A stretch of 64,000 bases of DNA from contig NZ_FLKP01000001.1 in the NCBI RefSeq assembly GCF_900087015.1, positions 124,001-188,000 of the forward strand, given 5' to 3'. The notes beneath the pieces are model-generated. The model was given only the letters and a program-made list of their open reading frames with translations, was not told where the DNA came from and ran no database searches. Below, piece after piece: positions 3,744-25,352 of this stretch (position 1 is the first letter of the stretch; every line of letters begins with the position of its first letter). Made by a program: the position numbers and the translations under genes. The DNA comes from Christensenella timonensis (GTDB lineage: Bacteria; Bacillota; Clostridia; Christensenellales; Christensenellaceae).

Positions 3744-3795
3744 AGAATAAGTTTATATATCCTTGTATAGAATTTCATATGTTACCGTGAGATTT

Positions 3796-3815
3796 GGGCA
3801 ACAATCGGGCAACAA
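3796..3815 (+). repeat. Paired GGGCAACAA direct repeats, possible integrase arm sites
   Basis: GGGCAACAA occurs at 3796-3804 and again at 3807-3815, offset by 11 bp (one helical turn). The pair lies between the integrase stop and the tRNA gene. Short direct repeats in this position often bind the integrase N-terminal domain. The role is inferred from position. Confidence 0.45.
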
Positions 3816-3924
3816 AAATGCAAAAATTATGTATGAGATGTATATTAGCAGATGCTCTAAAAACGTAAAATTGGCAAGTTTAGATGTGTGTATTGTAACT
3901 GATTATTTATCGGAAGAAAAAAAG

Positions 3925-3959
3925 AAATCCCGCATAAACCCTTTGCCTATGCGGGATTT
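3925..3959 (-). terminator. Terminator of tRNA-Ser
   Basis: On the minus strand the stem AAATCCCGCATA / TATGCGGGATTT is followed by a T-rich run (3912-3924). It begins directly at the encoded CCA of the tRNA. Confidence 0.85.
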
Positions 3960-4050
3960 TGGCGGAGCGGGTGGGATTTGAACCCACGTACCCTTGCGGA
4001 TAACGTGATTTCGAGTCACGCGCGTTACGGCCAGACTTCGCTACCGCTCC
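3960..4050 (-). tRNA. tRNA-Ser (anticodon CGA)
   Basis: 91 nt including an encoded CCA (3962-3960). The acceptor stem GGAGCGG pairs with CCGCTCC. The anticodon stem is CGTGA/TCACG around loop CTCGAAA, giving anticodon CGA for UCG codons. It has a long variable arm and the discriminator G typical of serine tRNAs. The T arm contains GGTTCAAATCC. It lies next to the integrase and is the likely integration target. Confidence 0.95.
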
Positions 4051-6864: not shown

Positions 6865-6941
6865 ATACAAACACCTTCCTTGATACCATCATACCATGCC
6901 GGATGGCTAAACACGGTACATCCATGGGAATTTCTCCTGTT

Positions 6942-6968
6942 TTGTTTTAAATATGCTTCTGCTATAAT
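6942..6968 (+). promoter_or_regulatory. Extended -10 promoter for rlmD
   Basis: TATAAT at 6963-6968 preceded by TGC (extended -10). A weak TTGTTT lies at 6942-6947 with a short 15-bp spacer, so the extended -10 probably carries recognition. Confidence 0.6.
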
Positions 6969-6999
6969 AGGATTTGTAAAAAAGGATGGCGGGAGAGAT

Positions 7000-8346
7000 A
7001 TGAAAAAAAACGATAGCATCGAATGTAGCATACACGATTTAGGGACAGACGGCCAGGGTATCGGCAGGTACGAGGGCATGACCGTATTCATCGACGGCGC
7101 ATTGCCGGGCGAGACGGTACGCGCGAAGCTGATCGCGCTCAAAAAGAACTATGGCGTCGGCAAACTGGAAGAAGTGATCGCTGCTTCCCCCATGCGCGTA
7201 AAGCCGCCCTGCCATGTGTTCGGCAAATGCGGCGGCTGCAGCCTGCAGCATCTTTCCTATGCCGGGCAGCTGCAATTCAAGCACAACCATGTTATGAGCT
7301 GCATCCAGCGCATCGGCGGCCTAGATATTCCGGTCGGCTTCCCTCTGCCCACACGGCACGAATACCGTTACCGCAATAAGGCGGCATTCCCCGTGCAGCA
7401 AAACGGCAGGCAGGTCGATATCGGCTTTTATGCGGCACATTCCCACCGCATTGTGGATGTTGACGACTGCAAGATACAGCCGTCGGATTTTCACATCGTC
7501 ATGTCGCAGCTGCGCGTATGGATCGTCAAAAACAACATCAGCATCTACGATGAAAAGACGCATACCGGACTTCTCCGGCACGTCATCCTGCGTGAAAACA
7601 AGGAAGGGGATATCATGCTCGTCCTCTGCATCAACGGCGAGGATATCCCGCGCAAGTCCCACCTCATCATGCTGTTTGAATTTGTGCTTCCTCAGGTCAA
7701 ATCCATTATGCTCAATATCAATACGCAAAAAACAAACGCGATCCTCGGACAAAAATCCGTTTGCATCCATGGACGCGACCATATTTTTGAAACGCTCGCC
7801 GGACTGACGTTCAAGCTGGGCGCACAAAGCTTTTTGCAAGTCAACTCCGCACAGACCGAAGTGCTGTACCATACATTGTTCAAGATGCTGGGGCTCACCG
7901 GCAGCGAGACCGTTTTTGACCTCTACTGCGGCGTAGGCACCATATCCCTTTTCGCCGCGCAGCACGCCAAAAAGGTAGTCGGCATTGAAATCGTGAAGCA
8001 GGCGATCAGCGATGCGCAGTTCAACGCACGCCTGAACGATATCGAAAACGCGGAATTCCTCTGCGGGGATGCTTCCGCCCTCCTTCCCGGCTTGGTCAAA
8101 ACGCATGGCAGGGCCGATGCAGCGATCGTCGATCCGCCGCGCAAGGGGCTGGACGAAGCCGTCATCCGTACGCTTGCCGCTTCCGGCATTCCTAAGATCG
8201 GCTATGTTTCGTGCAACCCTTCAACGCTTGCACGCGACCTGAAGCTGTTTTATGAGCTCGGTTACGAGACCGACCTGATCCAGCCTGTCGACCTTTTTTC
8301 CCAAACTACGCACATCGAATCTGTCTGCGTCCTGGAAAAGCATTGA
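7000..8346 (+). CDS. rlmD: 23S rRNA (uracil-5-)-methyltransferase, RlmD/TrmA family
   Basis: 448 residues from ATG 7000 (GGGAGAG upstream). It transfers methyl from SAM to C5 of a uracil in rRNA or tRNA. Residues 1-60 form a TRAM RNA-binding domain (IHDLGTDGQGIGRYEG). A 4Fe-4S site follows with Cys71, Cys77 and Cys80 (CHVFGKCGGC), the RlmD type. The C-terminal Rossmann domain has the SAM loop FDLYCGVGTISLF, the IVDPPRKG motif and the nucleophile Cys in YVSCNPSTLARDL. Firmicutes usually carry several paralogs, so the exact target uracil is uncertain. Monocistronic with its own promoter and terminator. Confidence 0.9.
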   Translation: MKKNDSIECSIHDLGTDGQGIGRYEGMTVFIDGALPGETVRAKLIALKKNYGVGKLEEVIAASPMRVKPPCHVFGKCGGCSLQHLSYAGQLQFKHNHVMSCIQRIGGLDIPVGFPLPTRHEYRYRNKAAFPVQQNGRQVDIGFYAAHSHRIVDVDDCKIQPSDFHIVMSQLRVWIVKNNISIYDEKTHTGLLRHVILRENKEGDIMLVLCINGEDIPRKSHLIMLFEFVLPQVKSIMLNINTQKTNAILGQKSVCIHGRDHIFETLAGLTFKLGAQSFLQVNSAQTEVLYHTLFKMLGLTGSETVFDLYCGVGTISLFAAQHAKKVVGIEIVKQAISDAQFNARLNDIENAEFLCGDASALLPGLVKTHGRADAAIVDPPRKGLDEAVIRTLAASGIPKIGYVSCNPSTLARDLKLFYELGYETDLIQPVDLFSQTTHIESVCVLEKH

Positions 8347-8439: not shown

Positions 8440-8991
8440 TTAGTCTTCAAACGGCTTGACGCCGTGCATCCTTACGATCTCCGGGTCGGTATAGATATCA
8501 TAGTCGTCCCTGTTGTAGCTGGAAAATTCGCTGACCACACAGCCTTCCGGGCCGCCGCATATCCAGTGCGTCACATTGGGCTGCAGCGTATACTGCTCTC
8601 CCTTGTTCAGGATGATTTCGTGGAACACATGGAACGTGTCCTTCTTGTCCTCCGGGATCTGCGCCTTGACCTGCTTGGTCGGTTCCCCCTCCGTATATAG
8701 GTAAAGCGTTCCCATCCGCACGCGGAAGCTCTCCTCTTTCCCTTCATAATCCCCAAAGGGCGGATGAATCTGTTCCGGGCATATCTGGTTGGGGAAGAGC
8801 ACCATCTCCTTTGCCGCGCAGCGCTTCGTGTTCACATAGATATGGATCACGATCCCGAATTCGTCAAGGCGGTCAAGCCCCATATCCGCGATTTCAAGGT
8901 TTTCTTTTTCTTCCTCCGTGAGGTAGATATGCGCCCGGTCAAAATACCCGATCGCTTTTTCCCGTGCCTGTTCCCTTGTCATATTTCCCAT
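8440..8991 (-). CDS. D-lyxose ketol-isomerase-like cupin
   Basis: 183 residues, the size of the YdaE-type D-lyxose/D-mannose isomerases, which interconvert an aldose with its ketose (D-lyxose to D-xylulose) using a divalent metal. The cupin metal site is visible: QIHPPFGDYEGKEESFRVR supplies His and Glu ligands, and a later His comes from LQPNVTHWICGGPEGCV. Start ATG 8991 follows AAGGAGG. It is the last gene of the ten-gene operon, 18 bp after the aldolase. In context it probably makes the ketose that the FGGY kinase phosphorylates. The exact sugar is inferred only from the family. Confidence 0.8.
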   Translation of the reverse strand: MGNMTREQAREKAIGYFDRAHIYLTEEEKENLEIADMGLDRLDEFGIVIHIYVNTKRCAAKEMVLFPNQICPEQIHPPFGDYEGKEESFRVRMGTLYLYTEGEPTKQVKAQIPEDKKDTFHVFHEIILNKGEQYTLQPNVTHWICGGPEGCVVSEFSSYNRDDYDIYTDPEIVRMHGVKPFED

Positions 8992-9009
8992 GATTTTTCC
9001 TCCTTGCTT

Positions 9010-9648
9010 TTACTTTTGGCCGCAGCCCTTGAACGCTTCTACTGCCTCATGTACCTGCATACTGTTCAAAATACTCGGTTTTCCCGCCATTTTGGCTACC
9101 AGATACGTTTTCGCCGCATCTTCTAAGTATACCGCCGCGTAAAGCGCCTGTTTCAAGTCTTCCCCCACAGTGATCACACCGTGGTTTTTTAAAATGACGG
9201 CGCGCTTGTCGTTGAGGTATTCCACTGTCTGTATCCCCATGTCCACGCTTGCCGCGGAGCTGTACTGCGTTACATTCACTTCGCCCAGCGTCACGTTCGC
9301 CAGCGTAGTCACAGCCGCAGGCAACACGTCCTCGATCAGTCCTACTGCCGTCGCATACACCTGGTGGGTATGGATGATGGAATTCACCTTTGGAAGATGC
9401 TCATAGATGTAAAGCAGCGCGACCGTGTCCACCGACGGCCTGCGGCCTCCCCCCAAAATGTTTCCCTGCGGATCCATGAGCAGGACGTCGGATTCCACCA
9501 TCGCCTCATAGTCCATCCCCGACGGGGTCACCAGGATATTGCCGTCCTCAAGCCGGAGGCTTACATTCCCTCCCGATAATGAGATCAGGTGGTATTCCTT
9601 TAGTTTCAACGCCGTATCGATGACGGCTTTTTTCAATCCCTGTGTCAT
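9010..9648 (-). CDS. Class II aldolase (L-fuculose-phosphate aldolase type)
   Basis: 212 residues, normal for the zinc class II aldolase/epimerase family. Members cleave a ketose 1-phosphate to dihydroxyacetone phosphate and a short aldehyde, or epimerise ribulose 5-phosphate. The zinc site is shown by IIHTHQVYATAV and the later LKNHGVITVG. The phosphate-binding GGNVSLR and TPSG motifs are present. FucA-type rather than AraD-type is my reading from length and spacing. Start ATG 9648 follows GAGGAGAG. It lies between the activase and the isomerase in the operon. If it works on a deoxy sugar phosphate the product would be lactaldehyde, a precursor of a diol for a dehydratase. Confidence 0.85.
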   Translation of the reverse strand: MTQGLKKAVIDTALKLKEYHLISLSGGNVSLRLEDGNILVTPSGMDYEAMVESDVLLMDPQGNILGGGRRPSVDTVALLYIYEHLPKVNSIIHTHQVYATAVGLIEDVLPAAVTTLANVTLGEVNVTQYSSAASVDMGIQTVEYLNDKRAVILKNHGVITVGEDLKQALYAAVYLEDAAKTYLVAKMAGKPSILNSMQVHEAVEAFKGCGQK

Positions 9649-9678
9649 ATTTTCTCTCCTCGTATCGTAATGATCGAT

Positions 9679-10557
9679 TTACCCGCCGATCTTGACGTTT
9701 ATCCCTTCCGCTTCCATTTTCTTTTTTATTTTCTCGATATCCTCATCCCTGGGCGTGTAGGCGTTGCAGCAATACTCCATACCCAGTTTCCGGTATTTCG
9801 CCACGCCGAATTCGTGGTAAGGCAGGATGTCGATGTCCATGACGTTTGTCTGTTTTGCAAAATCGATGACCGCGTCGATATTCGCTTCGTCGTCGTTCAC
9901 CCCGCCGATCAGGGGAATACGGTAGATGATATTTGCATGCAGCGCCGCGAGCCTGCGCGCGTTTTCCAAAACCAACTCGTTCGGTACGCCCGTATAGCGC
10001 TTATGCTGGGCGCTGTCCATGTGCTTGAGGTCATAAAGCACCGTATCGCAAAACCGTATCACCGCATAGGCCTGCTCAAACGGGGCATACCCTGTCGTTT
10101 CTATCGCCAGGTTCAAAAAACGCTTTTTGACCGCCTTCGCGAGGCTTGCGGCAAAGCGCCATTGCATGAGCGCTTCCCCTCCCGAAAGGGTCACGCCCCC
10201 GCCGGAGTTTTTATAAAACATCCTGTCCTTTTCGATCTCGTCAATAATTTCCTGCACGCTCATTTCCCTGCCGGATACCTCGCGGGCAGCCGCGTTGCAC
10301 ACGTCCACACATTTCCCGCAGCAGGTACATTTAGCCGGATCGGTGACGCCGCCCGCCGTACATACCGCAAAGCATTTTCCGCACCCGACGCACTTTCCTG
10401 CCGTCGCCAGCACCTGGCATGCCATCTTTTGCGACTCCGGGTTCGAGCACCACTGGCAGCGCAGCGGGCACCCTTTGAAAAACACGATCGTGCGCACGCC
10501 TTCTCCATCGTTGACACTATATTTTTGGATGTTGAAAATAATCCCCTTTTCGGCCAT
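9679..10557 (-). CDS. Glycyl radical enzyme activating enzyme (radical SAM)
   Basis: 292 residues. It uses SAM and a 4Fe-4S cluster to abstract hydrogen from the glycine of its partner. The radical SAM motif is FKGCPLRCQWCSNPES (CxxxCxxC), followed by a two-cluster ferredoxin insert with CVGCGKCFAVC and CTCCGKCVDVC. This insert is typical of activases for glycyl radical eliminases and decarboxylases and is absent from pyruvate formate-lyase activase. GGVTLSGGEALMQ is the conserved SAM-binding segment. Start ATG 10557, 25 bp after the enzyme gene it must activate. Confidence 0.93.
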   Translation of the reverse strand: MAEKGIIFNIQKYSVNDGEGVRTIVFFKGCPLRCQWCSNPESQKMACQVLATAGKCVGCGKCFAVCTAGGVTDPAKCTCCGKCVDVCNAAAREVSGREMSVQEIIDEIEKDRMFYKNSGGGVTLSGGEALMQWRFAASLAKAVKKRFLNLAIETTGYAPFEQAYAVIRFCDTVLYDLKHMDSAQHKRYTGVPNELVLENARRLAALHANIIYRIPLIGGVNDDEANIDAVIDFAKQTNVMDIDILPYHEFGVAKYRKLGMEYCCNAYTPRDEDIEKIKKKMEAEGINVKIGG

Positions 10558-10582
10558 ACCACATTCTCCCCTGTATTCTGCC

Positions 10583-13018
10583 TTAAAGCTGCTGCTCTGT
10601 CCGTGCGATGATGCTGTCCTGCACCTCTTTTGATATTTCGTTGAAAAACGCGCTGTAGCCCGCGACCCTTACGACAAGCCCCGCGTGCTTATCAGGGTTC
10701 TTTTGCGCGTCCCGCAGCGTATCCGCCGAAACGACGTTAAACTGCACCTGCGAACCGCCGAGGTCGATGTACGAGCGGATCAGCGAGCTGAACTTTTCCA
10801 GGCCCTGCTCTGCGAACAGCGGCCCCGGGCTCATCTTTTGGTTGAAGATCACACCGTTCCCGCAGCGTACGTGGTCTAGGCAGCTGACGGATTTGAATAC
10901 CGCAGTCGGCCCGTTTTTGTCCATACCGTTTTGCGGCGAGACCCCGTCCGCCAGCGGTTCTTTTGCCTTTCTGCCATCCGGCGTGGCTCCTGTCGACAAG
11001 CCGAACGCCACGTAAGAAGAAACGGGCATAAGCGCCGGGTTGAACGGGCCGCCCCGGTATGTCGTGTAGTGGGTCAGTTCGTCAAAGAACGTATCCGTAG
11101 CATACTTTGCGAAGATATCCACCTCCGGGATATCGTTGCCATATTTGGGCACCTTGTTCTGCAAATACAGCCGCAAATCTTCCCTGCCCTCAAAATTCGT
11201 TTCCAGCGCGTCGATCATTTCGCTCATACTGACGCGTTTATCTTCAAATACCGCTTTTTTCAGCGCCGCAAACGAATCCGCCGCGTTCGCAATCCCGATG
11301 CCCAGCGGCCCCGTCCAGTTGTAATGCGCGCCGCCCGAGGTAACGTCCTTCCCCTCGGCAATACAGTCGTCTACCAGCATGGATACATACGGCACGGGCG
11401 CCATGTCCTCGTGTACCATATCGATCATATTGTTGGCGGTGACCATGTGGCTGACGGCATATTTCATCTGCGCTTCAAAGGCTTTTGTCACGTCGTCAAA
11501 GGAGGTGAACTTGCGCGCGTCGCCCGTTTGCGGCCCCACCTGCTTCCCGGTGATCCTGCACACGCCGTTTGAAAGCGCGAGCTCCAAAACCTTGACCAAG
11601 CTGAAATAGCCGCCGTTCGCACGTCCCCAGGTGTTCCTCGGCATGGTCTCCAGACACCCGACCGGTACATAATCCCGCGCTTCTTCCAGCGTCACGCCCA
11701 GGCGCAGCATTGCGTTGACGAATATCTCGTCATTCGATATCTGCGGCATGCCGTTGCCCAGCCGGATCGCTTCGCACGTCCGGATGAGCAGGTCGTGCGG
11801 CGTTTTTTTATGGACGCGCACCGTGAAATTCGGCTGCCCCAAAAGGATGTGGCAGTGCGCTTCCAAACAGCGGTACGAAAGGTCGTTCGTTGCGTCCAGC
11901 CCTTGCGGCGAGACGCCGCTGATCGCTACGTTGTTGCCCGTCGGCTGCCCACCGGTCGAGGCAGCATCCACGGCATTGTAGATTTTCACGCTCTCTGAAA
12001 ACTTGATCCATAACGCTTCCAGTATCTCCTGCGCCTTGATCTTGGTGAGCCTGCCCTCCGCAATATCCTTTGCATAGTACGGATACATATACTGATCCAT
12101 CCGTCCGGGCGTATACGAGGTGCCGTTGTCGTTGATGAACGGTACGCAATGTACGAGCATGAACGATTGCATCGCCTCGTGGAACGTACGCGCCGGGTTT
12201 TCCGGTACATAATCGCACACCCGCGCGATCTCCAGCAGCTCGGCAGCCCTCTCCTTGTCCTTTTCCAGCGCCGCAAGCCGCCGTGCCTGCGCAGCATAGC
12301 GGTGCGCAAAGCTGATCACGCCATCGATGATGATGAGGCAGGCCTGGTAAAACAGCCGTTTCTTCATGGATGCCGGGTCGCTCATCACAAGCGCGCCGTT
12401 CTTTTCCTCGATCTCCCTGCGTACGTCCGCAAAACCGCGCGTGATGATCTTTTCATAATTGAGCGCCACATGCGCAAGCCCGCCCGTTTCGTGCAGGCCG
12501 ATCGTGAACAGCTGCGCGTCATATGTCTGCAGCTTGATCTCCTCGTCGTATATTGTCTGTATCCGGTCGTTTAGGGTCTTGCCCGCCCAGTACGGATAGA
12601 TTTCGTTCAGGAATTCCTCTTTCACTTCTTTGGATACGGCAAACGGATCCATGTCCCGCGTTTCAAACAGGTCGATCTCGTCTTTGATCCATTGTACGCC
12701 GAATTCCGGGAATATTTCCGCGCAGCGGTGCGCCGAAGCGGAGTGCCCGACGATCAATTCGTCTTTTAAAATATACACATTGATTTGTTCGAGCAGGTCG
12801 CGCAGCGCCATCGCCCGGCGGATGATCGGCGGCTGTCCTTCCGTCTGCTTATACGACTGCGTGATGATCCGCGCCCGGTCGCACAGCAGCCGCGGCTTTA
12901 CCGCGACCACCTGGTCTTTCAGCCGTTGGCACCGTTCGTATTCCTTGCTGCCTTTGGGCATCACGTCCTCGATATCGATCTTGACTCTTTCCTGGTTCCC
13001 ATTCCAATATCCTAGCAT
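10583..13018 (-). CDS. Glycyl radical enzyme, eliminase/dehydratase type, substrate unknown
   Basis: 811 residues from ATG 13018 (AAAGGAG eight bases upstream; a GTG nine bases earlier is less well placed). The C-terminal glycyl radical loop is RVAGYSAFFN with Gly787. The active-site Cys455 lies in YVPVGCLETMP, with Glu457 two residues on, the Cys-x-Glu arrangement of diol dehydratases and C-N/C-S lyases rather than the Cys-Cys of pyruvate formate-lyase. His183 (GGLAH) fits the second conserved active-site His of dehydratases. At NGTSYTPGRMDQYMYPYY the position I recall as His in glycerol dehydratase is Thr300, so the pocket differs. No microcompartment targeting peptide or shell genes are seen. 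The substrate is unknown; a diol or sugar-derived polyol is likely from context. Confidence 0.9.
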   Translation of the reverse strand: MLGYWNGNQERVKIDIEDVMPKGSKEYERCQRLKDQVVAVKPRLLCDRARIITQSYKQTEGQPPIIRRAMALRDLLEQINVYILKDELIVGHSASAHRCAEIFPEFGVQWIKDEIDLFETRDMDPFAVSKEVKEEFLNEIYPYWAGKTLNDRIQTIYDEEIKLQTYDAQLFTIGLHETGGLAHVALNYEKIITRGFADVRREIEEKNGALVMSDPASMKKRLFYQACLIIIDGVISFAHRYAAQARRLAALEKDKERAAELLEIARVCDYVPENPARTFHEAMQSFMLVHCVPFINDNGTSYTPGRMDQYMYPYYAKDIAEGRLTKIKAQEILEALWIKFSESVKIYNAVDAASTGGQPTGNNVAISGVSPQGLDATNDLSYRCLEAHCHILLGQPNFTVRVHKKTPHDLLIRTCEAIRLGNGMPQISNDEIFVNAMLRLGVTLEEARDYVPVGCLETMPRNTWGRANGGYFSLVKVLELALSNGVCRITGKQVGPQTGDARKFTSFDDVTKAFEAQMKYAVSHMVTANNMIDMVHEDMAPVPYVSMLVDDCIAEGKDVTSGGAHYNWTGPLGIGIANAADSFAALKKAVFEDKRVSMSEMIDALETNFEGREDLRLYLQNKVPKYGNDIPEVDIFAKYATDTFFDELTHYTTYRGGPFNPALMPVSSYVAFGLSTGATPDGRKAKEPLADGVSPQNGMDKNGPTAVFKSVSCLDHVRCGNGVIFNQKMSPGPLFAEQGLEKFSSLIRSYIDLGGSQVQFNVVSADTLRDAQKNPDKHAGLVVRVAGYSAFFNEISKEVQDSIIARTEQQL

Positions 13019-13052
13019 AACTTTCACTCCTTTCAGCGTTTCAAAAGCCTTT

Positions 13053-14081
13053 TTATCCCTGCGCCTTTTTCTGGTCGCGTTTATTGATCATGTAATTAAA
13101 GATCAGCGCTGCAATGAGGACAACGCCCCAAATGATATCCCTGTAGAAATTCGAGATGTTCTCGTACATATTGAGGCAGCTGCTCAAAAACTGCAGGATG
13201 ATCGCCGCCACCACGATCCCCTGGATGTTCCCCTTGCCGCCCTCCGTACTGACGCCGCCGAGCACGGCGACCAGTACGCATTGCAGCGTGTATGCCGAAC
13301 CGTAATCCGCCTTCGCGGAATTCTGTTTTGCCATCATGATGATACCCGCCGCCACCGCCATCAGTCCCGAAAGCGCGTATGTCTTGACCAGCAGCGCGCT
13401 CGTCTTCAGACCCGCGTATTTCGCCGCCGTGCTATTGGAGCCCAGCAGGTAAAGGCGCGAGCCGAATTTGGTGCGTGAGAGTACGACGCCCATCAGGACG
13501 GCGCATAAGATAAAAATCACCAGCGGCACGGGGATCACTCCCCCAAGATTTGCATTGAAGACTTTGGAATACAACGACGGCAATCCGCTCACCGAACGCC
13601 CCTGTGTCATCACGATCGCGATCCCCCAATAAAGCTGCTGCGTCCCCAGCGTTGCCAAAATCGGCGGGATCCCTATTTTGGAAATCAGCAGCCCGTTGAT
13701 GGCGCCTGCGCCCAGCCCGACCCCAACAGCGATCACGATCGCCGCTATGACCACGCCTAAAACCTGTGAGTCCGGCATGTCCTTCGTCGTATTGGCCAGC
13801 ATGAACAAGGCCGCCGAAATAGAGGACAGGTTCGCGATATTGACGACGCTTAAGTCGATGCCGCCCGTCAGCAGGGCGAGGCCGATCCCGATGGAAAGCA
13901 GTCCATATTCCGGAAACTGCTTGGCAATACTCTGGAAGTTCGCCCCTGTGAGGAACAGCTCCGGCTTCAATACCGAGCAAAGCACGAACACGCCCGCCAG
14001 GATCAACAGCAGCCGGAAAAAGTTTTTGTCCTTCCCATAGATATCTTTGAGCTTCAAGGGTTTACATACTGTGTCATTCAT
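13053..14081 (-). CDS. Sugar ABC transporter permease (second of pair)
   Basis: 342 residues from ATG 14081 (GGGGGAGAAAAG upstream). An open frame continues far upstream inside the preceding gene but has no support. BPD_transp_2 (RbsC/AraH) family with about 9-10 membrane segments. Family signatures visible are LALLTGGIDLSVVNIANLS near residue 75 and ATLGTQQLYWGIAI, then VLGGVSTEGGKGN near the C-terminus. It would pair with the upstream permease to form a heterodimeric channel. It begins 14 bp after that gene. Two different permeases with one double ATPase is the rhamnose (Rha) and AI-2 (Lsr) importer layout rather than the ribose one. Confidence 0.9.
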   Translation of the reverse strand: MNDTVCKPLKLKDIYGKDKNFFRLLLILAGVFVLCSVLKPELFLTGANFQSIAKQFPEYGLLSIGIGLALLTGGIDLSVVNIANLSSISAALFMLANTTKDMPDSQVLGVVIAAIVIAVGVGLGAGAINGLLISKIGIPPILATLGTQQLYWGIAIVMTQGRSVSGLPSLYSKVFNANLGGVIPVPLVIFILCAVLMGVVLSRTKFGSRLYLLGSNSTAAKYAGLKTSALLVKTYALSGLMAVAAGIIMMAKQNSAKADYGSAYTLQCVLVAVLGGVSTEGGKGNIQGIVVAAIILQFLSSCLNMYENISNFYRDIIWGVVLIAALIFNYMINKRDQKKAQG

Positions 14082-14095
14082 TCTTTTCTCCCCCT

Positions 14096-15097
14096 TCATC
14101 CTGCGATCTTGATATTGGGCTTCCGGTTGTTTTTCAGCATCTGGTATGCCGATATCCCGGTACCGATCAGGATGATCGCTCCCGTAAACACCCGCTGCCA
14201 GTAGGTCGGTATGCCCAATAAGATGAGGCTGTTCGACATCATCGTCATCAGCAGGATACCGATCACCGTCCCCGTGATCGATCCCTTGCCGCCCGTGACG
14301 CTCACGCCCCCAAGTACGCAGGCCGCGATACATGTCATTTCCATGCCCGCAAGGTTGGTCGGCTGGCAGTTCGTCATCATCACCGCACGCGCAACGCCCG
14401 TAAAGCCGGCGATCGCACCGCTGAAGCAATAGACGAACATTCGGATATGAAAGACATTGAAGCCCGCGCGTTTGGCAGACACCGCGTCGCCCCCGACGCC
14501 GTAAATACCCCGTCCCAATATGGTCTTGTTCATCAGCAGCCACACCGCCACGATCAATATGATGAAAAACAGGATCGTCACCGGCATGTCCGAGCTGATG
14601 CCCAGCGCGTCGTTTGTCGCCGTAAACAGCTTTGCTTTTCCAAGGTCGTACATCTGCTGCGGCACAGGCGTTTCGTTTGCGGCGAACACTCCTAGCAATA
14701 TCCCGTTAAAAAGGCTCGCCGTTCCCAGTGTGATGATCAGCGGCTGGAACTTGAATTTAGCGATCAAAAATCCGTTCAATACGCCCATGGCAAGCCCAAG
14801 CGCCGTCCCCACAAGGAAGAACACGACCACGCTTCCCGTAAAATCTTTCATATATGCGCTCACGATATACATCGAGAGCGACGCGATCGCCGGGAATGAA
14901 ACGTCGATCCCGCCCGAGACCAGCACGATCATTTCCGCGATGCAGAACATCCCGGGAATGATGAGCGAGCGCACGAGGTCGACTAAGTTATTCCCCGTAA
15001 AGAATTGCCCGCTGACCGCCTGGATCACGCAAGCGAGGATCACGACGACGATCAGCATATAGAACTCCGTTTTATGTACTACTCTTCTCAAACTCAC
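14096..15097 (-). CDS. Sugar ABC transporter permease (first of pair)
   Basis: 333 residues, BPD_transp_2 family, about 9-10 membrane helices. The signature loop is VLVSGGIDVSFPAIASLSMY, then LIITLGTASLFNGI, and near the end CVLGGVSVTGGKGSITGT. It sits 14 bp after the ATPase and 14 bp before its partner permease, so all are co-translated. Substrate specificity is set mainly by the binding protein and is not readable here. Confidence 0.9.
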   Translation of the reverse strand: MSLRRVVHKTEFYMLIVVVILACVIQAVSGQFFTGNNLVDLVRSLIIPGMFCIAEMIVLVSGGIDVSFPAIASLSMYIVSAYMKDFTGSVVVFFLVGTALGLAMGVLNGFLIAKFKFQPLIITLGTASLFNGILLGVFAANETPVPQQMYDLGKAKLFTATNDALGISSDMPVTILFFIILIVAVWLLMNKTILGRGIYGVGGDAVSAKRAGFNVFHIRMFVYCFSGAIAGFTGVARAVMMTNCQPTNLAGMEMTCIAACVLGGVSVTGGKGSITGTVIGILLMTMMSNSLILLGIPTYWQRVFTGAIILIGTGISAYQMLKNNRKPNIKIAG

Positions 15098-15111
15098 AAT
15101 AGAAGCCCCCC

Positions 15112-16593
15112 TTATTCAGCAGCTGTCAGATCGATTTGCCCAAGCCCCGTTGCGTCCGTTTCCCCCACGATCCTGCCGCCGTTCATGATCAGCACACGGT
15201 TACAGTTCTCCTCAAGCTCCGGCAGGTCGTCGGATATCACGATCACCGCCAGCCCGCTTTGCGCCAGCTGCCTGATGATGGCATGGATGTCATACTTTGC
15301 GCCGATATCCACCCCGACCGTGGGGCCGTTCAAAATCAGCACCTTCAAATCGAGCGCCAGCCAGCGCGCAAGCAATATTTTTTGCTGGTTTCCTCCCGAC
15401 AGGGTTTGGATCGGGTCGTCTATGCTCCCGATCTTTACCTTGAATTCCTCGATCGACCGATCCACCATCCCCCGGCACGCCCCGCGATCCAAAAGCCCCA
15501 GCTTGTTTGCGAAGCTGTCCCATTTTGCCACAGCCAGGTTGTCGTTGATCGACTGGATCAGGAACAATCCTTCCGTCAGGCGATCCTCCGGTACATAGCC
15601 GATTCCGTTGCCGATGGCGTCTTCCACGCAGCGGATTTTCTTCTCCTGCCCGTCTATGAAAATCTTCCCGCTGTCTGCGCAGCGGTAACCGAACAGCGTT
15701 TCCGCCATTTCCGTCCGCCCCGACCCGAGCAGCCCTGTGATCCCGACGATCTCGCCTTTCCTGACGGAAAATGAAATGTCCCTAAAGCCGTTTTTCAGCG
15801 AAAGTCCCTGTACTTCAAGCACCGTCTGTTCTCCTGCCTGCGGCCGGAATTTTTCCACGGCTTCAAAGTCGCGCCCCGTCATATATTTCCTGAATTTTTT
15901 ATCGTCTAAGTCCTTTGTCTCCCCGCTCACGACATTTTTGCCGCTGCGCAGGATCGTAAAGCGTTCGGAGATCTCGAATACCTCGTCCAGCTTATGCGAT
16001 ACAAAAAGGATCGCGATCCCTTCTTCCTGTAAATCCTTGATGATCCCGAACAATGCCTTGACCTCTTTTGCCGTAAGCGCCGTCGTCGGTTCATCCATAA
16101 TGATCAGCTTCGCATTATTGAGCAGTGCGCGGCTGATGGCGATCAGCTGTTTTTCCGCTACGGAAAGGTTCTCCACGGTTTCATCCAGATCAACGTCAAA
16201 GTTGATTTTGGAGATCGCTTCCTGCGCCGTTTTGCGCATCCGCTTTCTACTGATCCACTTGCGTTTATTCGCAAGCTCCTGGTTGATCGACAGGTTTTCC
16301 ATTGCCGTAAGGTTGGGAAAAATGGAAAAGTCCTGGTAGATCACCTGTACGCCCGCCTCGATCGCCTGCTCCGGCGTGATTTTGTCGTACTTCCGGCCGT
16401 CTATCTCTATTTCGCCGCCGTCTGTCGCGTGAAAACCCGAAATCGCTTTGATCAGCGTCGATTTCCCACATCCGTTCTCCCCCGCCAGGCAATGGATCTC
16501 CCCTTTTTTGATGTGGAGCGAAACGTCCTGCAGGGCCTTTACTCCTCCAAAATGTTTGGATATATGATCCACTTTCAAAACATACTCCGACAT
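15112..16593 (-). CDS. Sugar ABC transporter ATP-binding protein, two ATPase domains
   Basis: 493 residues, RbsA/MglA type with two fused ATPase domains that power import. Domain 1 has Walker A GENGCGKST, signature LSVAEKQ and Walker B LIIMDEPT. Domain 2 has the degenerate Walker A GLLGSGRTE, signature LSGGNQQK and LILNGPTVGVD in the Walker B position, where the usual acidic pair is replaced by Gly-Pro. That makes domain 2 probably non-hydrolytic, as is common for the second site in this family. I chose ATG 16593 behind AGGAGG (16606-16601); the open frame extends upstream into the hairpin after the binding-protein gene. Confidence 0.92.
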   Translation of the reverse strand: MSEYVLKVDHISKHFGGVKALQDVSLHIKKGEIHCLAGENGCGKSTLIKAISGFHATDGGEIEIDGRKYDKITPEQAIEAGVQVIYQDFSIFPNLTAMENLSINQELANKRKWISRKRMRKTAQEAISKINFDVDLDETVENLSVAEKQLIAISRALLNNAKLIIMDEPTTALTAKEVKALFGIIKDLQEEGIAILFVSHKLDEVFEISERFTILRSGKNVVSGETKDLDDKKFRKYMTGRDFEAVEKFRPQAGEQTVLEVQGLSLKNGFRDISFSVRKGEIVGITGLLGSGRTEMAETLFGYRCADSGKIFIDGQEKKIRCVEDAIGNGIGYVPEDRLTEGLFLIQSINDNLAVAKWDSFANKLGLLDRGACRGMVDRSIEEFKVKIGSIDDPIQTLSGGNQQKILLARWLALDLKVLILNGPTVGVDIGAKYDIHAIIRQLAQSGLAVIVISDDLPELEENCNRVLIMNGGRIVGETDATGLGQIDLTAAE

Positions 16594-16630
16594 ACCTGCC
16601 CCTCCTGATACGCTGCCATTTCCAGCGGCG

Positions 16631-16661
16631 GTATGCGGGCAAACGTGGTTTGCCCGCATAC
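16631..16661 (-). promoter_or_regulatory. Strong intercistronic hairpin after the binding-protein gene
   Basis: 14-bp perfect arms (GTATGCGGGCAAAC / GTTTGCCCGCATAC) around a 3-nt loop, with no T run after it. It lies between the solute-binding protein and the ATPase. Such hairpins often protect the upstream mRNA from 3' decay so that binding protein is made in excess. Confidence 0.7.
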
Positions 16662-16678
16662 CCGTCCGCCAGGTGTTT

Positions 16679-17767
16679 TTAGAAATTGTACTGGTCTACG
16701 TTCGACGCGTCGATCGTGATCATCGCTGCGCCCACCAATGTCTTATCGCTGCCCTGCGCAAAGCTGACGTTGTCGTAGCCTGCCAGGCCTAAGTCGAGGC
16801 CGTCCTTGATCTCCTCGCCATCGAGTACCTTGGCTGCCAGCGCGCACATCGCATAGCCTGCATCCGCGGGGTCCCACAGTACGACGGAATCCAGCGTGCC
16901 GTCCTTCATGAATTCACTGCATTGGCTTGGCATGCCGGAACCGCAGATGAATACTTTGCCTTTCAGTCCGAGTTCTTCCACTGCCCGCGCGATTCCCGGC
17001 GGGTCATAGGCACAGCAGCCGATAAAGCCTTTCAGGTCAGGATATTTTTTCAACATTTCTTTCGCTTTTTCATAAGCGCGTTCCGTATCGTCCTCCGTTT
17101 CGATCCTCGGCTCTTCCGCCAGGATCGTCATGTTCGGATACGCTTCTTCCTGCCTTGCGACAGCGCTGTCCGCCCACGCGTTGTGGGAAGCCGTCGTTAC
17201 AAACCCGACCGACGTCGTATAGACGCCCTCTTCGCCCATCGCTTTTGCGAGGTTGTCCATCATGAACGCGCCGTAATCCGCGTTGTTGAACGCTTCGATG
17301 TCATAGTCGCACGCCTTTATGTCCGGCGCTTCATGCGTAATGACTACGATTCCTTTGCTGCGTGCTTCTTCCAGTACCGGTTCTAAGGAATCCGGCTCGA
17401 TGGGTACGACACAGATCGCGTCGACGTCCTGTGCGATCAGGTCTTGCACCACCTGTACCTGCAAGGATGCGTCCGCCCCGGACGGCCCTTTCTGGTATGC
17501 GTTGCTTCCGGTATCCTGCGCATATTTCTTGACGCCCTCTTCCATCCGTACGAACCATGCGCTCGTGGAATCCTTCGGCACGACCGCGATCTTCCAGGCC
17601 CCAGCGCCGCCTGCCGTGTCATCGGACGGGCTTTCCGCCGCACTCTGTGCTGCGGAGCTTTCTGCCGCCTGCGATTCGGACGGTGCTTCCGTCTGCGCCG
17701 GTGTGGCGCATGCCGCCAGCGACACCACCATCAAGACCGCCAACAAGATCATTACTGTTTTTTTCAT
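16679..17767 (-). CDS. Sugar-binding lipoprotein of ABC importer
   Basis: 362 residues. The lipoprotein signal (MKKTVMILLAVLMVVSLAAC) ends in a lipobox Cys at residue 20, followed by a Ser/Ala/Gln-rich linker to about residue 55. The rest is a Peripla_BP_4 fold (WKIAVVPKDSTSAWFVRMEE, later DAICVVPIEPDSLEPVLEEA). The sequence resembles RhaS/LsrB-like binding proteins more than RbsB, by eye. It would capture the substrate outside the membrane and deliver it to the two permeases. Start ATG 17767 after GGAGG. First transport gene of the operon, 32 bp after the kinase. Confidence 0.9.
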   Translation of the reverse strand: MKKTVMILLAVLMVVSLAACATPAQTEAPSESQAAESSAAQSAAESPSDDTAGGAGAWKIAVVPKDSTSAWFVRMEEGVKKYAQDTGSNAYQKGPSGADASLQVQVVQDLIAQDVDAICVVPIEPDSLEPVLEEARSKGIVVITHEAPDIKACDYDIEAFNNADYGAFMMDNLAKAMGEEGVYTTSVGFVTTASHNAWADSAVARQEEAYPNMTILAEEPRIETEDDTERAYEKAKEMLKKYPDLKGFIGCCAYDPPGIARAVEELGLKGKVFICGSGMPSQCSEFMKDGTLDSVVLWDPADAGYAMCALAAKVLDGEEIKDGLDLGLAGYDNVSFAQGSDKTLVGAAMITIDASNVDQYNF

Positions 17768-17799
17768 CTTCTTTCCTCCGTTTTTTATTTTTGGCTTTT

Positions 17800-19347
17800 T
17801 TATTCCCTTGCGCCGTTCATCAGCGCAAAAATGTGTTCCTTTTTCATTGCCGCGTACAATTTTTGGAAAATCCCGTAGCAGCGGTTATATTTCGCAACGT
17901 TTGCCTGATCCGGCAGGATCGGCTCGTCGCACTTCACCATCTGTGCCGCGCCCTCTTCGGGCGAAGCGAATACCCCCGCGCCATATCCTGCCAGGATCGC
18001 CGCACCCAGCACGGTCGCATCGCTTATCTTCAGCCGCCTTAAGGGAAGGCCGAGGATGTCCGCCATGATCTGCCGCCAAAGCGCCGATTTCGTGGCCCCG
18101 CCGGTGATGCGTAGCTCCTGGAAAGCTACGCCCGCTTCACGCATCGTTTCCATGATCTCGCGCATTTCATACATGCACCCCTCCATAAAAGCGCGTGCCA
18201 TGTCTCCCTTTGTATGCATGAACGTCAACCCCGCCAGCACGCCCTTTGCCTCCACGTCCCAGTGCGGACACCCCGCCGAAGCAAAATAGGGCAGAAGGAT
18301 CAACCCGTTTGCGCCCGGGGGCGACTGCCTGACGAGCTCGTCCATCAATACGTATGGATCCATGCCCAGCCCTTTTGCCGTATCGCGTTCCTGCGTCGCC
18401 ACCACGTCGCGCAGCCAGCGGTAGACCGATGCTGCGGACAGCTGGATCCCGTTCAATTCATAATTGCCCGGCACCGCGGCGTTGACCGTCATCATCTTCA
18501 GTACGTGTTCGCTCGCAAGCGGCTGCCTGATATAGGAAATCAGGTGCCCGGCCGTGCCGATCGTCATTTCTGCCAGCCCCTCGGAAACGATGCCCGCCCC
18601 CAGCGCGCCGCAGCTCTGGTCGCCCGATCCTGCGATGAGCAACGTATCTGTGGAAAGGCCCGTCAAAGCCGCCGCTTCCCCACTGACCCGTCCCAGCACC
18701 GTGCCGCTTTTCACGACCTTGGGGAATTTCTTTGCATCAAGCCCGTAGGCGGTTATCAGTTTTTCGCTCCATACGCGCTTTTGCATATCGAATATGCCGC
18801 TGCACGAGGCGTTCCCCCAGTCGCAGTAATAATCGTCCGCGCCAAAGCGCTTCGCCAGGAACTCCGAGACCATCGAGACCACTTTGGCCTTTTCGTATTC
18901 CTCCGGATAATGCTTTTTGAACCAGAGGATATTGCTGATGCAGTAGGTGGGCGTGACGGGCATCCCAGAAAGGCGCGTCGTTTCCTTTTCGTCCAGGCAT
19001 TGCTTCTGGAACTCCACTTCCTCCGTCGCCCTGTTGTCCTGCCAGCTATACATCACATTGCGCATCATCTTTCCGTCTTCGCCAATGAAGCCGACGGTCG
19101 AACGCTGCGTGGAAAAGCTGACCGCCTTGATCTCCCGCGGGTCGAGGCCGGACATATCCACCGCCTCCCTGCACGCCTCGAACGTTCGCTCGATCAGCTG
19201 TTCTGCGTCAAATTCAAACCAGTCGGGCTCTGGCGTCGCTGCGATACACTCCCGATAGCCTGTCCCCATGACCCGGGCTTCCAGGTCAAAAATCATTGCC
19301 TTCGTCCCGGTCGTACCGATGTCGACTCCCATCAAATAAATTGCCAT
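17800..19347 (-). CDS. FGGY-family carbohydrate kinase (LsrK/XylB-like)
   Basis: 515 residues. FGGY kinases phosphorylate ketoses, polyols or AI-2. The N-terminal phosphate loop is MGVDIGTTGTKAMIFD. The FGGY-N catalytic region includes YSWQDNRATEE, and the FGGY-C domain has MTIGTAGHLIS and LRITGGATKSALWRQIMADI. MVSEFLAKRFGA and the SGIFDM segment look closer to AI-2 kinase than to classical xylulokinase, but this is by eye. I chose ATG 19347 (MAIYLMGVDIG); ATG 19356 is nine bases earlier and sits almost on the AGGAAAGG site. Second gene of the operon. Confidence 0.88.
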   Translation of the reverse strand: MAIYLMGVDIGTTGTKAMIFDLEARVMGTGYRECIAATPEPDWFEFDAEQLIERTFEACREAVDMSGLDPREIKAVSFSTQRSTVGFIGEDGKMMRNVMYSWQDNRATEEVEFQKQCLDEKETTRLSGMPVTPTYCISNILWFKKHYPEEYEKAKVVSMVSEFLAKRFGADDYYCDWGNASCSGIFDMQKRVWSEKLITAYGLDAKKFPKVVKSGTVLGRVSGEAAALTGLSTDTLLIAGSGDQSCGALGAGIVSEGLAEMTIGTAGHLISYIRQPLASEHVLKMMTVNAAVPGNYELNGIQLSAASVYRWLRDVVATQERDTAKGLGMDPYVLMDELVRQSPPGANGLILLPYFASAGCPHWDVEAKGVLAGLTFMHTKGDMARAFMEGCMYEMREIMETMREAGVAFQELRITGGATKSALWRQIMADILGLPLRRLKISDATVLGAAILAGYGAGVFASPEEGAAQMVKCDEPILPDQANVAKYNRCYGIFQKLYAAMKKEHIFALMNGARE

Positions 19348-19473
19348 ATCCCCCATCCTTTCCTGTTTTTTGCATACACAAACTAGAGGTGAAATCAGTT
19401 TTTTTACAAATTTCAAATCCAATGCCGTTTATTTCTTTGCTTTTGTTAATCCGGAACAGCTGTTAGTTTGCTT

Positions 19474-20448
19474 TTAATTTTCCTTGTTTAAAAAGTTCAG
19501 TATTTTTTCTGCCGTATAGATATCTGTGACTAAAATATTGAAAATATGCGTGCGGGCCCCGCCGATGATCGAACCCACCTTATGGCTGCCCCCTCCCGTC
19601 GCGATCACGAGCGGCGTTTTCCTGATCTGCTCTAAACTGATCGCCACGATGCGCTCCGTCATCTCCGTGATGCGCTCGTTGCCCTCGATGTCGTAAAACC
19701 TTGCGCACATGCTGCCCACCACGTTCGATTCGGCAAGCTGCCGCCGGGTCTCCCCGCTCGCATTTTCCACCTTCAGCGTCATGGAATGTTCCAGGTCGCC
19801 GTCGATCGCCGTGATAGCCATATCCAGCTCATCAAATTTTTCGAGCGTGGATTTGATATTCGGCAGGTTTACATACGCTTCCTTCATGGCCGCGTTCCCC
19901 GCGAACAGGGGCGCGTACACATAGTCCACCATGCTCCCGCTGTAATTGGAAGCGATATGCTCGCAAAGGATATTCGCGAACATCGAGCAATGATCCGCCT
20001 TTCCCGGCCCTCCCAGGATCGGCATAAACGTAACGTTCCTGATGTTCTTTGCGGATACCATATTTTTCGCGATGACCTCAAGCGTCTTGCCCCAGCCAAC
20101 GCCGATCCGCATATTGCTTTTGATAAACTGCTGGATGTATTGCGTTGCATATTGCGCGATACCGTTCATGATCTCTTCACTGTTGTCCGATACCGCATCC
20201 ACGATCTTGACCTCGCGCAGCCCCAGCTTCTGCTTCAATTCATTTTCGATCTCCATAAACTCATTCAGCTTTTGGATATCACAAACTTCAATTTTTACGA
20301 TCCCTTCCTGCTTCGCCTCCTTTAAAAACTTTGTCAATGTAGGGCGCGATATATTTAACCGCTCTGCAATTTCCTTTTGCGGTATATCTTCCAAATAATA
20401 TAGGCGGGTCGCTTCCAGTTTGATGGCGTATCTCTCTTGCTCTTTCAA
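19474..20448 (-). CDS. SorC/DeoR-type sugar-responsive transcriptional regulator 1
   Basis: 324 residues. The N-terminal helix-turn-helix is IPQKEIAERLNISRPTLTKFL. The rest is the SorC sugar-phosphate binding domain (IGVGWGKTLEVIA, VTFMPILGGPGKA, SMCARFYDIEGN). Family members such as LsrR and CggR respond to a phosphorylated ligand. TTG 20448 is chosen because CGGAGGGG lies eight bases upstream and it aligns with the start of the paralog at 25353; ATG codons at 20469 and 20481 precede that ribosome site. First gene of the minus operon, behind a good promoter, a TTTACA palindrome and a cre-like site. Confidence 0.88.
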   Translation of the reverse strand: MKEQERYAIKLEATRLYYLEDIPQKEIAERLNISRPTLTKFLKEAKQEGIVKIEVCDIQKLNEFMEIENELKQKLGLREVKIVDAVSDNSEEIMNGIAQYATQYIQQFIKSNMRIGVGWGKTLEVIAKNMVSAKNIRNVTFMPILGGPGKADHCSMFANILCEHIASNYSGSMVDYVYAPLFAGNAAMKEAYVNLPNIKSTLEKFDELDMAITAIDGDLEHSMTLKVENASGETRRQLAESNVVGSMCARFYDIEGNERITEMTERIVAISLEQIRKTPLVIATGGGSHKVGSIIGGARTHIFNILVTDIYTAEKILNFLNKEN

Positions 20449-20569
20449 GATAAAATCCCCTCCGCTCATCCGGCCTGTCATTCAAATCGTATCAAACGAG
20501 ATTTTAAAATATTTATTTTTCATCATCAGGAATCAAAAAATTGAAATTTACGTTTCTCTGTTTATCCAC

Positions 20570-20598: not shown

Positions 20599-20633
20599 GC
20601 GGATTTCCGATTTTAATTTGAATTCCAAACTAA

Positions 20634-20649
20634 TTTTACATGTGTAAAA
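20634..20649. promoter_or_regulatory. SorC-type operator 1
   Basis: TTTTACATGTGTAAAA has perfect 7-bp arms around a 2-bp centre. It is one of four TTTACA-NN-TGTAAA palindromes in the window, all at promoters of the SorC-linked genes. It lies upstream of the operon promoter, a position that allows activation or looping with operator 2 about 300 bp away. Confidence 0.75.
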
Positions 20650-20936: not shown

Positions 20937-20952
20937 TTTTACACATGTAAAT
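20937..20952. promoter_or_regulatory. SorC-type operator 2
   Basis: TTTTACACATGTAAAT contains TTTACA-CA-TGTAAA. It sits about 25 bp downstream of the predicted start point of the TPR operon, a roadblock position typical for repression. Confidence 0.75.
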
Positions 20953-20984
20953 TTTTTTGCGACGATCAAAGGAGTGTGCTTTTT

Positions 20985-21929
20985 ATGGAAAATGCAACCG
21001 AAAAATTCTTTCAGGAGCTTGACGAACAATATGCCACCGGGGATATGGAAAAGGTGGAGCGCTTTTTACAGACCAGCGCCCGCAGCTACCGTCCCTGCTG
21101 CGGCGGCTTTAACGCAAACTATCTCGCCGTGTTGAGCGAGCTGGGCGGTTTTTACCGCGGCACCAGCAAATACACCGCTTCGGTGGAGGCGTTCAGGGCG
21201 GCCAACGAAATCATCATGGAATTCATCGGCAAGGACAGCCTTGAATATGCGACCAACTTAAACAACCTTGCGGGGACTTACCGCCTGATGGGTGAATACG
21301 ACAAATCCTTGAGGACATTCACAGAAGCAATGGATACTTACCGCGCGACGGTGGGCACAGACAACTACCTGTTCGCAAGCGCCCTCAACAACGTGGCGCT
21401 GCTCCACCAGGATATGAAGGAGTATGAACAGGCTGTTTCCTGCCTGCTGCAGGCGCTCGGCGTGCTCGAAAACCTGCCCGATACACAGGGCGACGTAGCG
21501 ACGACGTACAACAACTTAGCCGCCCTTTACAACCGGCTGGGAGACGACGCAAAAGCCAAGGAAGCGCTTGCGCGTTCGATTGCCCTTTACGAGAGCCTGC
21601 CGGAGGAAAGCCCGCACTATGCGGCTGCCCTCAACCTGCATGCGGCGTTTTTATACCGCGACGGCAAATACGGGGAAGCCAAAGACGCGTACCTGAAGGT
21701 GTTGCAGGAAGTGGAGCGCTTCTTTGGGCGCAATATCGAATACGGGATCGCCTGCGATAACCTGCGGCGCGTATATGAAAAGCTGGGCGACAACGCGCAG
21801 GCGGAACAATATATGAAACAGGCGGTGGATATCTACAGCGCCGTCTACGGCAAAGACCACGAGATCAGCAAGCAGGCTGTAGCGGTTTTACGGGAACTGG
21901 AAGCCGGAAGGAATTCATGCGGCGTATGA
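20985..21929 (+). CDS. Tetratricopeptide-repeat protein
   Basis: 314 residues, ATG 20985 with AAAGGAG ten bases upstream. After about 50 residues it is built of TPR pairs from the kinesin light-chain type subclass, for example EYATNLNNLAGTYRLMGEYD, FASALNNVALLHQDMKEY and VATTYNNLAALYNRLGD, continuing to VYEKLGDNAQAEQYMKQAVD. Such arrays are protein-interaction scaffolds. No signal peptide, so cytoplasmic. It overlaps the next gene by 13 bp. The partner is probably the DUF4037 protein, judged by coupling. It is controlled by operator 2. Confidence 0.88.
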   Translation: MENATEKFFQELDEQYATGDMEKVERFLQTSARSYRPCCGGFNANYLAVLSELGGFYRGTSKYTASVEAFRAANEIIMEFIGKDSLEYATNLNNLAGTYRLMGEYDKSLRTFTEAMDTYRATVGTDNYLFASALNNVALLHQDMKEYEQAVSCLLQALGVLENLPDTQGDVATTYNNLAALYNRLGDDAKAKEALARSIALYESLPEESPHYAAALNLHAAFLYRDGKYGEAKDAYLKVLQEVERFFGRNIEYGIACDNLRRVYEKLGDNAQAEQYMKQAVDIYSAVYGKDHEISKQAVAVLRELEAGRNSCGV

Positions 21930-25134: not shown

Positions 25135-25262
25135 GCTATTTTACTTAATTGTGTATACATTTACGCTAACATCTTTTTTTTCATCTGTCAATCCCTTTCG
25201 CCGTGCGTTTTTACATCCTCACAAATGTGTTTCAATTTCTTTTTCCGCATACCTCTCCCTTG

Positions 25263-25291
25263 TTGACAAGACAGCGCAAAAAGCTTATGAT
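25263..25291 (+). promoter_or_regulatory. Promoter of SorC regulator 2
   Basis: TTGACA at 25263-25268, 17-bp spacer, TATGAT at 25286-25291. Operator 4 lies just after the expected start point. Confidence 0.75.
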
Positions 25292-25313
25292 ATTATTGAC
25301 AAACATAAAATTG

Positions 25314-25329
25314 ATTTACAGTTGTAAAT
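25314..25329. promoter_or_regulatory. SorC-type operator 4
   Basis: ATTTACAGTTGTAAAT, TTTACA-GT-TGTAAA with one extra pair on each side. It lies between the promoter and the start codon of SorC regulator 2, consistent with autorepression. Confidence 0.78.
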
Positions 25330-25352
25330 GCATAAAAAAGGGGATCAGCATT

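Follow-up and report, generated by a model that had tools for sequence, protein, structure and literature searches.

A glycyl radical enzyme of a separate clade and a variant lyxose-isomerase-like cupin in a sugar operon of Christensenella timonensis

The 64,000-nucleotide stretch of Christensenella timonensis DNA analysed here (contig NZ_FLKP01000001.1, positions 124,001 to 188,000; hereafter the window) contains at positions 8440-20481 ten genes that combine an oxygen-sensitive glycyl radical enzyme (GRE) of the eliminase type with a sugar ABC importer, an FGGY kinase, a class II aldolase and a cupin resembling D-lyxose isomerase. Judged by their sequences, these genes form an intact, partly recurring GRE pathway in which the GRE pocket and the cupin both depart measurably from known kinds. 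We propose, giving the proposal an even chance, that the GRE cleaves a C-O bond (possibly a C-N or C-S bond) of an imported sugar-like compound, yielding a product on which the cupin, kinase and aldolase act.

Results

The GRE gene (10583-13018, minus strand, with a reading frame open to 13027) encodes a PFL-like domain (Pfam, 740.6 bits) and a Gly_radical domain (105.8 bits). Residues of the GRE are numbered from GTG 13027 unless stated, those of the cupin and of the reference enzymes by their own numbering. In the alignment the catalytic set is intact: Cys458-x-Glu460, the motif already named in a first-pass annotation of this DNA, His186 as the equivalent of His164 of glycerol dehydratase, and Gly790 in the glycyl loop, which reads RVAGYSAFF. 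The adjoining gene (9679-10557, minus strand) encodes a radical SAM activase with a CxxxCxxC motif and two more Cys clusters, and scored 340.2 bits against a cut-off of 174.35 for TIGR02494. By these features the protein is a member of the eliminase-type GRE superfamily, with radical formation and turnover predicted.

The NCBIfam models placed the GRE in the broad PFL2-3 subfamily (801.8 bits, cut-off 678.2), but it missed the cut-offs of all GRE equivalog models listed, HpfG and HpsG included (637 and 614 bits, cut-offs 1000). An AlphaFold model reached a pLDDT of 93.4 with a 97-row alignment, and only 54.9 with a 7-row alignment. The best structural matches of the modelled fold were the 1,2-propanediol dehydratase 9rco (Z 53.1, 42% identity) and the glycerol dehydratase 1r8w (Z 52.9, 43% identity), tied with the next few matches. 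In a quick tree of 37 rows with SH-aLRT supports, which like the pocket comparison below covered 13 of the 16 GREs of the genome (all except C2:1837284, C2:932152 and C2:1876578), the GRE formed a clade with eight others of 50-57% identity (support 99). Sister to the window GRE was that of locus L044 in G012, a genome from another genus of the family (support 98). The glycerol and propanediol dehydratases and YbiW fell outside this clade, and PflD, on a long separate branch, stood deep on the clade's side of the tree; identities to YbiW and PflD were 38-40%. On this phylogeny the clade is separate from the GREs of known substrate that were compared. The first-pass annotation had named tight clustering with such an enzyme as evidence against its reading; none was seen, the nearest solved enzymes sharing 42-43% identity.

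Among 200 relatives searched, no GRE match apart from the window GRE itself exceeded 57% identity. A class-wide search (391 genomes sampled, matches to E 1e-205) gave no further clade member, and L209 (46%) lay at the edge of the clade. Among the best 80 loci of a contig scan, only L056, from a Phycisphaerales metagenome-assembled genome, exceeded 45%, with 53%; further close relatives may lie beyond these 80. This clade GRE (L056:9535-12057) is sister to another GRE of the window genome (L041:15642-18059); blastp found no other homologue of the window operon on its 13 kb contig, and it may represent either a cross-phylum transfer or a binning error.

Compared with glycerol dehydratase, the aligned pocket of the GRE shows the exchanges His281 to Thr, Asp447 to Asn, Ser448 to Gly, Tyr339 to Gly and Tyr640 to Met, at positions whose roles are in part presumed here; the equivalent of Ser282 of the diol dehydratases is kept. 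The replacement of His281 had been noticed before as Thr300, counted from ATG 13018 (Thr303 from GTG 13027), and it turned out to be one of several pocket changes. All nine clade members carry Asn at 447, Gly at 448 and Gly at 339, and vary at 281 (Val or Thr) and 640 (Met, Leu, Val or Ile). His281, Asp447, Tyr or Phe339 and Tyr640 are retained in both reference dehydratases and in the GREs of L059, L061, L068, L109 and L210; PflD likewise has Gly at 339. As aligned, the GRE lacks much of the diol-dehydratase pocket. Since large residues are replaced by small ones, the changes suggest a larger pocket and a substrate larger than a C3 diol. Six of the 13 GREs examined in the genome combine Gly at 339 with Val or Thr at 281 and one of Met, Leu, Val and Ile at 640. 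A cupin gene of the variant described next lies within 8 kb of five of these six (two GREs share one cupin) and of none of the other seven.

The last gene of the operon (8440-8991, minus strand) encodes this cupin, assigned by Pfam, phmmer and alignment. Its Pfam match was marginal (21.4 bits, cut-off 20.8), and phmmer against the solved lyxose isomerases gave an E-value of 5.6e-59. The Thermofilum lyxose isomerase binds Mn through H75, H77, H143 and E88, and H75 has been proposed as a possible ring-opening acid (PMC8378251). The window cupin has Gln74, His76, His142 and Glu87 at the Mn-ligand positions, so that the HxH...E...H metal site is incomplete at its first His; the other contact residues K61, K85, E155 and D162 are conserved. 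The protein labelled earlier as a lyxose-type isomerase is a variant in which one of the eight sugar-contacting residues of true lyxose isomerases is missing. Residue 74 could be read in 30 of 34 rows from the order and in 28 of 53 new rows from the class, the rest being locus-less, truncated or unaligned. All seven genes of a subgroup with at least 58% identity to the window cupin have Gln here; the 51 other genomic homologues read, like the two solved structures, all have His. For six of the seven Gln-type cupins a GRE is found no more than 4 kb away. Across 396 genomes of the order, none of the 27 other cupin matches, many of them on short contigs, had a GRE within 5 kb; the closest was 6.7 kb away, in G082. 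A hypergeometric estimate by hand gave about 5e-6 for this association, to be read with all Gln-type genes belonging to one family and many contigs being short. The Gln-type cupin may serve as a marker tying the GRE product to an unusual sugar isomerase.

The catabolic set recurs in part in related genomes, where neighbouring genes were called as longest open reading frames (ORFs), which hides some of them (e.g. the cupin in L046). Locus L044 holds together a LacI regulator, a DUF4432 gene, the cupin (71% identity), FGGY kinase (66-67%), GRE (57%), activase (49%) and aldolase (68%), and the importer has no homologue in these 20 kb; G012 was also the only one of the 200 relatives with a kinase match above 38%. 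Loci L043 and L046 contain the GRE, the cupin, a DUF4432 gene and ABC genes, and blastp over 20 kb of each gave no homologue of the window kinase or aldolase. The DUF4432 gene adjoins the cupin in L043, L044, L046 and L219, the last of which is described below. Within the window genome the Gln-type cupin also adjoins three further GREs, and in G002 it adjoins the orthologue of one of them. Aldolase homologues of at least 60% identity occur in eight of the 200 genomes, the window genome included, and five of the eight have them no farther than 5 kb from a GRE. The clusters in G002 and G005 also contain a xylose-isomerase-like TIM barrel, an FGGY kinase and a SorC gene. Given this recurrence beside different GREs, the combination of GRE, isomerase or epimerase, FGGY kinase and class II aldolase can be regarded as a repeated logic.

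The class II aldolase/epimerase (9010-9648, minus strand) shares 28-32% identity with E. coli AraD, UlaF and FucA, roughly equidistantly. Its zinc-binding His triad is conserved, and FucA Glu73 and Tyr113, which together with the triad we take to define FucA-type aldolases, are replaced by Asp and Thr. It has Asp at the position of AraD Asp76 (PSxD) and Asn at AraD Asp120, and the C-terminal Tyr229 is missing; the roles of these three residues are likewise assumed. The top NCBIfam model was L-ribulose-5-phosphate 4-epimerase, under its cut-off.

The remaining genes precede the GRE on the same minus strand. In order of transcription the operon reads SorC regulator, FGGY kinase, binding protein, ABC ATPase, two permeases, GRE, activase, class II aldolase and cupin. 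The SorC-family regulator (Sugar-bind PF04198) lies at 19474-20481 and starts at ATG 20481 or TTG 20448; the earlier boundary of 20448 corresponds to the TTG, and the upstream ATG is equally open. The FGGY kinase (17800-19347, ORF open to 19422) is nearest to the XylB/LsrK type and below every NCBIfam cut-off listed. The importer comprises a periplasmic sugar-binding protein (Peripla_BP_4, 16679-17767) with a lipobox-like start, which is RhaS/LsrB-like under the cut-offs, a sugar ABC ATPase (15112-16593, ORF open to 16659) and two BPD_transp_2 permeases (14096-15097, and 13053-14081 with an ORF extending open further upstream); ATPase and first permease were assigned by Pfam and NCBIfam. The main Pfam assignments were far over the cut-off for every operon protein except the cupin. 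An lsr-like operon was considered for its likeness to LsrK and LsrB and rejected, as the XylB, RhaS and AraG models scored higher.

With starts preceded by a ribosome-binding site, the intergenic gaps are, from the cupin end, 18, 30, 25, 34, 14, 14, 85, 32 and 126 bp, and the genes and gaps of the one-strand operon described in the first-pass annotation were recovered. Both flanking genes are on the plus strand, the downstream one (6880-8346) convergent and the upstream one, for a TPR protein (20976-21929), divergent; the ten genes are therefore taken as one unit. A -35/-10-like site upstream of the SorC gene (20598-20570) is a mere consensus match; promoter-like sites (16, with 10.6 expected) and terminator-like sites (11, with 13.5 expected) carry no evidential weight. 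Two AT-rich 18-nt inverted copies (20632-20649 and 20937-20954, 94%) upstream of SorC are a possible operator, and chance is possible as well. Another SorC regulator gene (25203-26321, plus strand) is divergent from an ORF at 23534-25075 (minus strand), FGGY-kinase-like on reading its sequence, some 3 kb away from the operon. Elsewhere in the window a phage-type integrase gene (2463-3743) lies beside tRNA-Ser (3960-4050) and a pemK RNA match (2077-2163), and the region 2077-4050 is perhaps an integrated element.

The 2.65 Mb genome (G000) contains 16 PFL-like GRE genes. No other of the 18 family genomes searched has as many; they gave 0-13 GRE matches, fragments counted. Clusters of GREs occur at C1:200-221 kb (four) and C2:121-147 kb (three). 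Within 8 kb of the 16 GREs we found homologues of the ABC ATPase or permease for 13, of the activase for 14, of the FGGY kinase for six and of SorC for eight, counts based on longest-ORF calling and thus likely to miss some genes. That 13 of the 16 GREs lie near importer genes suggests radical elimination as a main feeding strategy of this organism.

The Pfam scan confirmed that none of the ten operon genes encodes a microcompartment shell protein or a dehydrogenase, and the operon is free-standing as the first-pass annotation had described it. The absence is not in itself unusual for GRE eliminases, however: hydroxyproline dehydratase, YbiW and PflD function without a microcompartment. Nor is the genome devoid of bacterial microcompartment (BMC) shell genes; five PF00936 matches occur in two places, the nearer more than 80 kb from any GRE. 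These sites are C2:1544468-1545608 and C2:1751278 (L214, L215), and the group at the former adjoins two aldehyde dehydrogenase genes and a Complex1_51K/RnfC gene among the neighbouring ORFs scanned. The annotation as a whole is partly supported: a free-standing operon and a GRE that does not cluster with the known-substrate GREs compared were upheld, and the microcompartment argument and the lyxose-type isomerase are weaker points.

Discussion

In the self-contained, anaerobic catabolic pathway that we propose, the ABC importer would take up a monosaccharide-sized polyol, anhydro-sugar or sugar conjugate, and the activase would install the glycyl radical on the GRE. Cys458 would abstract a hydrogen from a carbinol carbon and Glu460 would deprotonate the hydroxyl group of that carbinol; the adjacent C-O (possibly C-N or C-S) bond would then break and give a keto- or aldo-sugar. 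This product would pass through the variant cupin isomerase to be phosphorylated by the FGGY kinase, and the class II aldolase would split (or epimerise) the phosphate for entry into central metabolism. A pathway intermediate would be sensed by SorC. Radical elimination is proposed because in most GRE eliminases the Glu of the Cys-x-Glu motif is held to deprotonate a substrate hydroxyl, the resulting ketyl radical then ejecting the adjacent group (PMC7077986). The gene sets of L043 and L046, with GRE, cupin, DUF4432 gene and importer but not this kinase and aldolase, suggest that the GRE acts before the kinase and is tied to the sugar side rather than to an aldolase fragment. The loss of the ring-opening His from the cupin would be explicable if its substrate arrived as an open-chain sugar, of the sort that known ring-opening GREs form; these give 1-deoxyfructose 6-phosphate from anhydrohexitol phosphates (PMC12441222). 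A new reaction type for a GRE is possible.

A more specific form of this proposal, which we consider unlikely, is that radical C-O elimination by the GRE serves to open the ring of an unphosphorylated sugar-like substrate, or to release a sugar bound in an ether or glycoside, and that the many GREs of the organism each serve their own imported compound. The open-chain sugar would then pass to the isomerase, which through the His-to-Gln exchange would have lost its own ring-opening acid.

Several observations weigh against the proposed pathway. The complete ten-gene form occurs only in the window genome, and the ORFs of L043 and L046 were scanned in part, so that kinases or aldolases of other families are possible there. 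All seven Gln-type cupins belong to family f1, and their link with GREs is thus confounded by common descent. Locus L219 (G001:C1:1428001-1440000) contains an operon without a GRE, composed of SorC (42% identity), FGGY kinase (32%), the Gln-type cupin (68%), DUF4432 and ABC genes, and its closest GRE is about 11.5 kb away; the Gln-type cupin therefore appears usable without a neighbouring GRE. This operon adjoins a transketolase-half gene. Conversely, G005 has a clade GRE and no cupin match. Other clade loci have different kinases near the GRE (PfkB in L045; Dak1 and Dak2-RpiB, along with an SDR, in L047), and substrates therefore probably differ among the clade GREs. The class II enzyme may be an epimerase rather than an aldolase. 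Finally, the pocket was read by alignment, and the match of Asn471 depends on it through a one-residue gap in that loop.

It is possible, although at clearly less than an even chance, that the GRE acts downstream instead. The cupin would isomerise an imported aldose, the FGGY kinase would give a ketose-1-phosphate, and the aldolase would release dihydroxyacetone phosphate and a small aldehyde; a reductase encoded elsewhere would form a diol or polyol, which the GRE would dehydrate without a shell. Isomerase, kinase and class II aldolase occur together in the manner of the fuc and rha operons, the closest solved GREs are diol dehydratases, and one of the BMC sites elsewhere in the genome lies beside two aldehyde dehydrogenase genes. 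However, the diol pocket is not conserved, none of the ten operon genes encodes a reductase, and in L043 and L046 the GRE and cupin are present although the 20 kb examined at each locus contain no homologue of this aldolase or kinase.

It seems improbable that the genes form a pentose operon, in which the cupin would produce a ketulose, the FGGY kinase its 5-phosphate and a class II 4-epimerase D-xylulose 5-phosphate, the GRE only freeing the pentose from a conjugate. The Asp in the PSxD motif and the best NCBIfam model of the class II enzyme, under its cut-off as it is, agree with this, as does L219, where the Gln-type cupin is linked with FGGY, DUF4432 and ABC genes next to the transketolase-half gene. 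The Asn at AraD Asp120 and the missing Tyr229, whose roles are presumed as above, argue against it. A D-apiose pathway was also considered, and the literature search for it yielded nothing usable. So was a route for dihydroxypropanesulfonate or a sulfosugar, for which the HpfG and HpsG scores stayed below the cut-offs given above.

Two further explanations are very improbable. An ordinary glycerol or 1,2-propanediol dehydratase recruited to a sugar operon would fit the 42-43% identity to both enzymes and the retained catalytic Cys, Glu, His and Gly, but was rejected for its altered pocket and separate clade with support 99, in an operon without a dehydrogenase gene. Equally hard to sustain is ring opening of a 1,5-anhydrohexitol 6-phosphate as by YbiW and PflD: GREs do open anhydro-sugar phosphates (PMC12441222, citing Ma et al. 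2024) and PflD shares the Gly at 339, yet identities are 38-40%, YbiW lies elsewhere in the tree and PflD on its own long branch, and this anhydroglycolysis of the phosphotransferase system (PTS) type was discarded as none of the ten genes encodes a PTS component or an FsaA-type aldolase.

GREs lacking an assigned substrate are common in gut anaerobes, and those that were solved each revealed a nutrient route. A literature search limited to titles and abstract openings, with few subscription journals, gave no account of such a GRE-cupin operon. The operon may reveal a new way for microbes to open or trim sugars, and its combination of a GRE clade with a compact, testable set of partners offers a direct route to testing the radical-elimination feeding strategy.

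Among known systems, the glycerol (1r8w) and 1,2-propanediol (5i2g, 9rco) dehydratases resemble the window GRE in fold (Z about 53), Cys-x-Glu motif, His164, Ser282 and Gly loop. The window enzyme differs by five pocket substitutions, and its partners are a sugar importer, kinase, aldolase and cupin in an operon without dehydrogenases. The fuc and rha operons of E. coli follow the same logic of isomerase, kinase and class II aldolase; the window operon has another isomerase family, an aldolase with 28% identity to FucA and an added GRE, and a lactaldehyde/propanediol oxidoreductase is not among its genes. The 1,5-anhydrohexitol 6-phosphate lyases YbiW and PflD of 'radical-mediated glycolysis' likewise employ a GRE eliminase in sugar-like catabolism and work without a microcompartment. 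They use a PTS route, in contrast to the ABC importer, FGGY kinase and class II aldolase of the window, and the window GRE has a different pocket at 38-40% identity. The D-lyxose isomerases of Thermofilum (7nzo) and B. subtilis (2y0o) are cupins like the window protein, which shares seven of the eight sugar-contacting residues listed for the Thermofilum enzyme (K62, H77, K86, E88, H143, E156 and D163), whereas H75, the metal ligand and suggested ring-opening acid of 7nzo, is replaced by Gln74.

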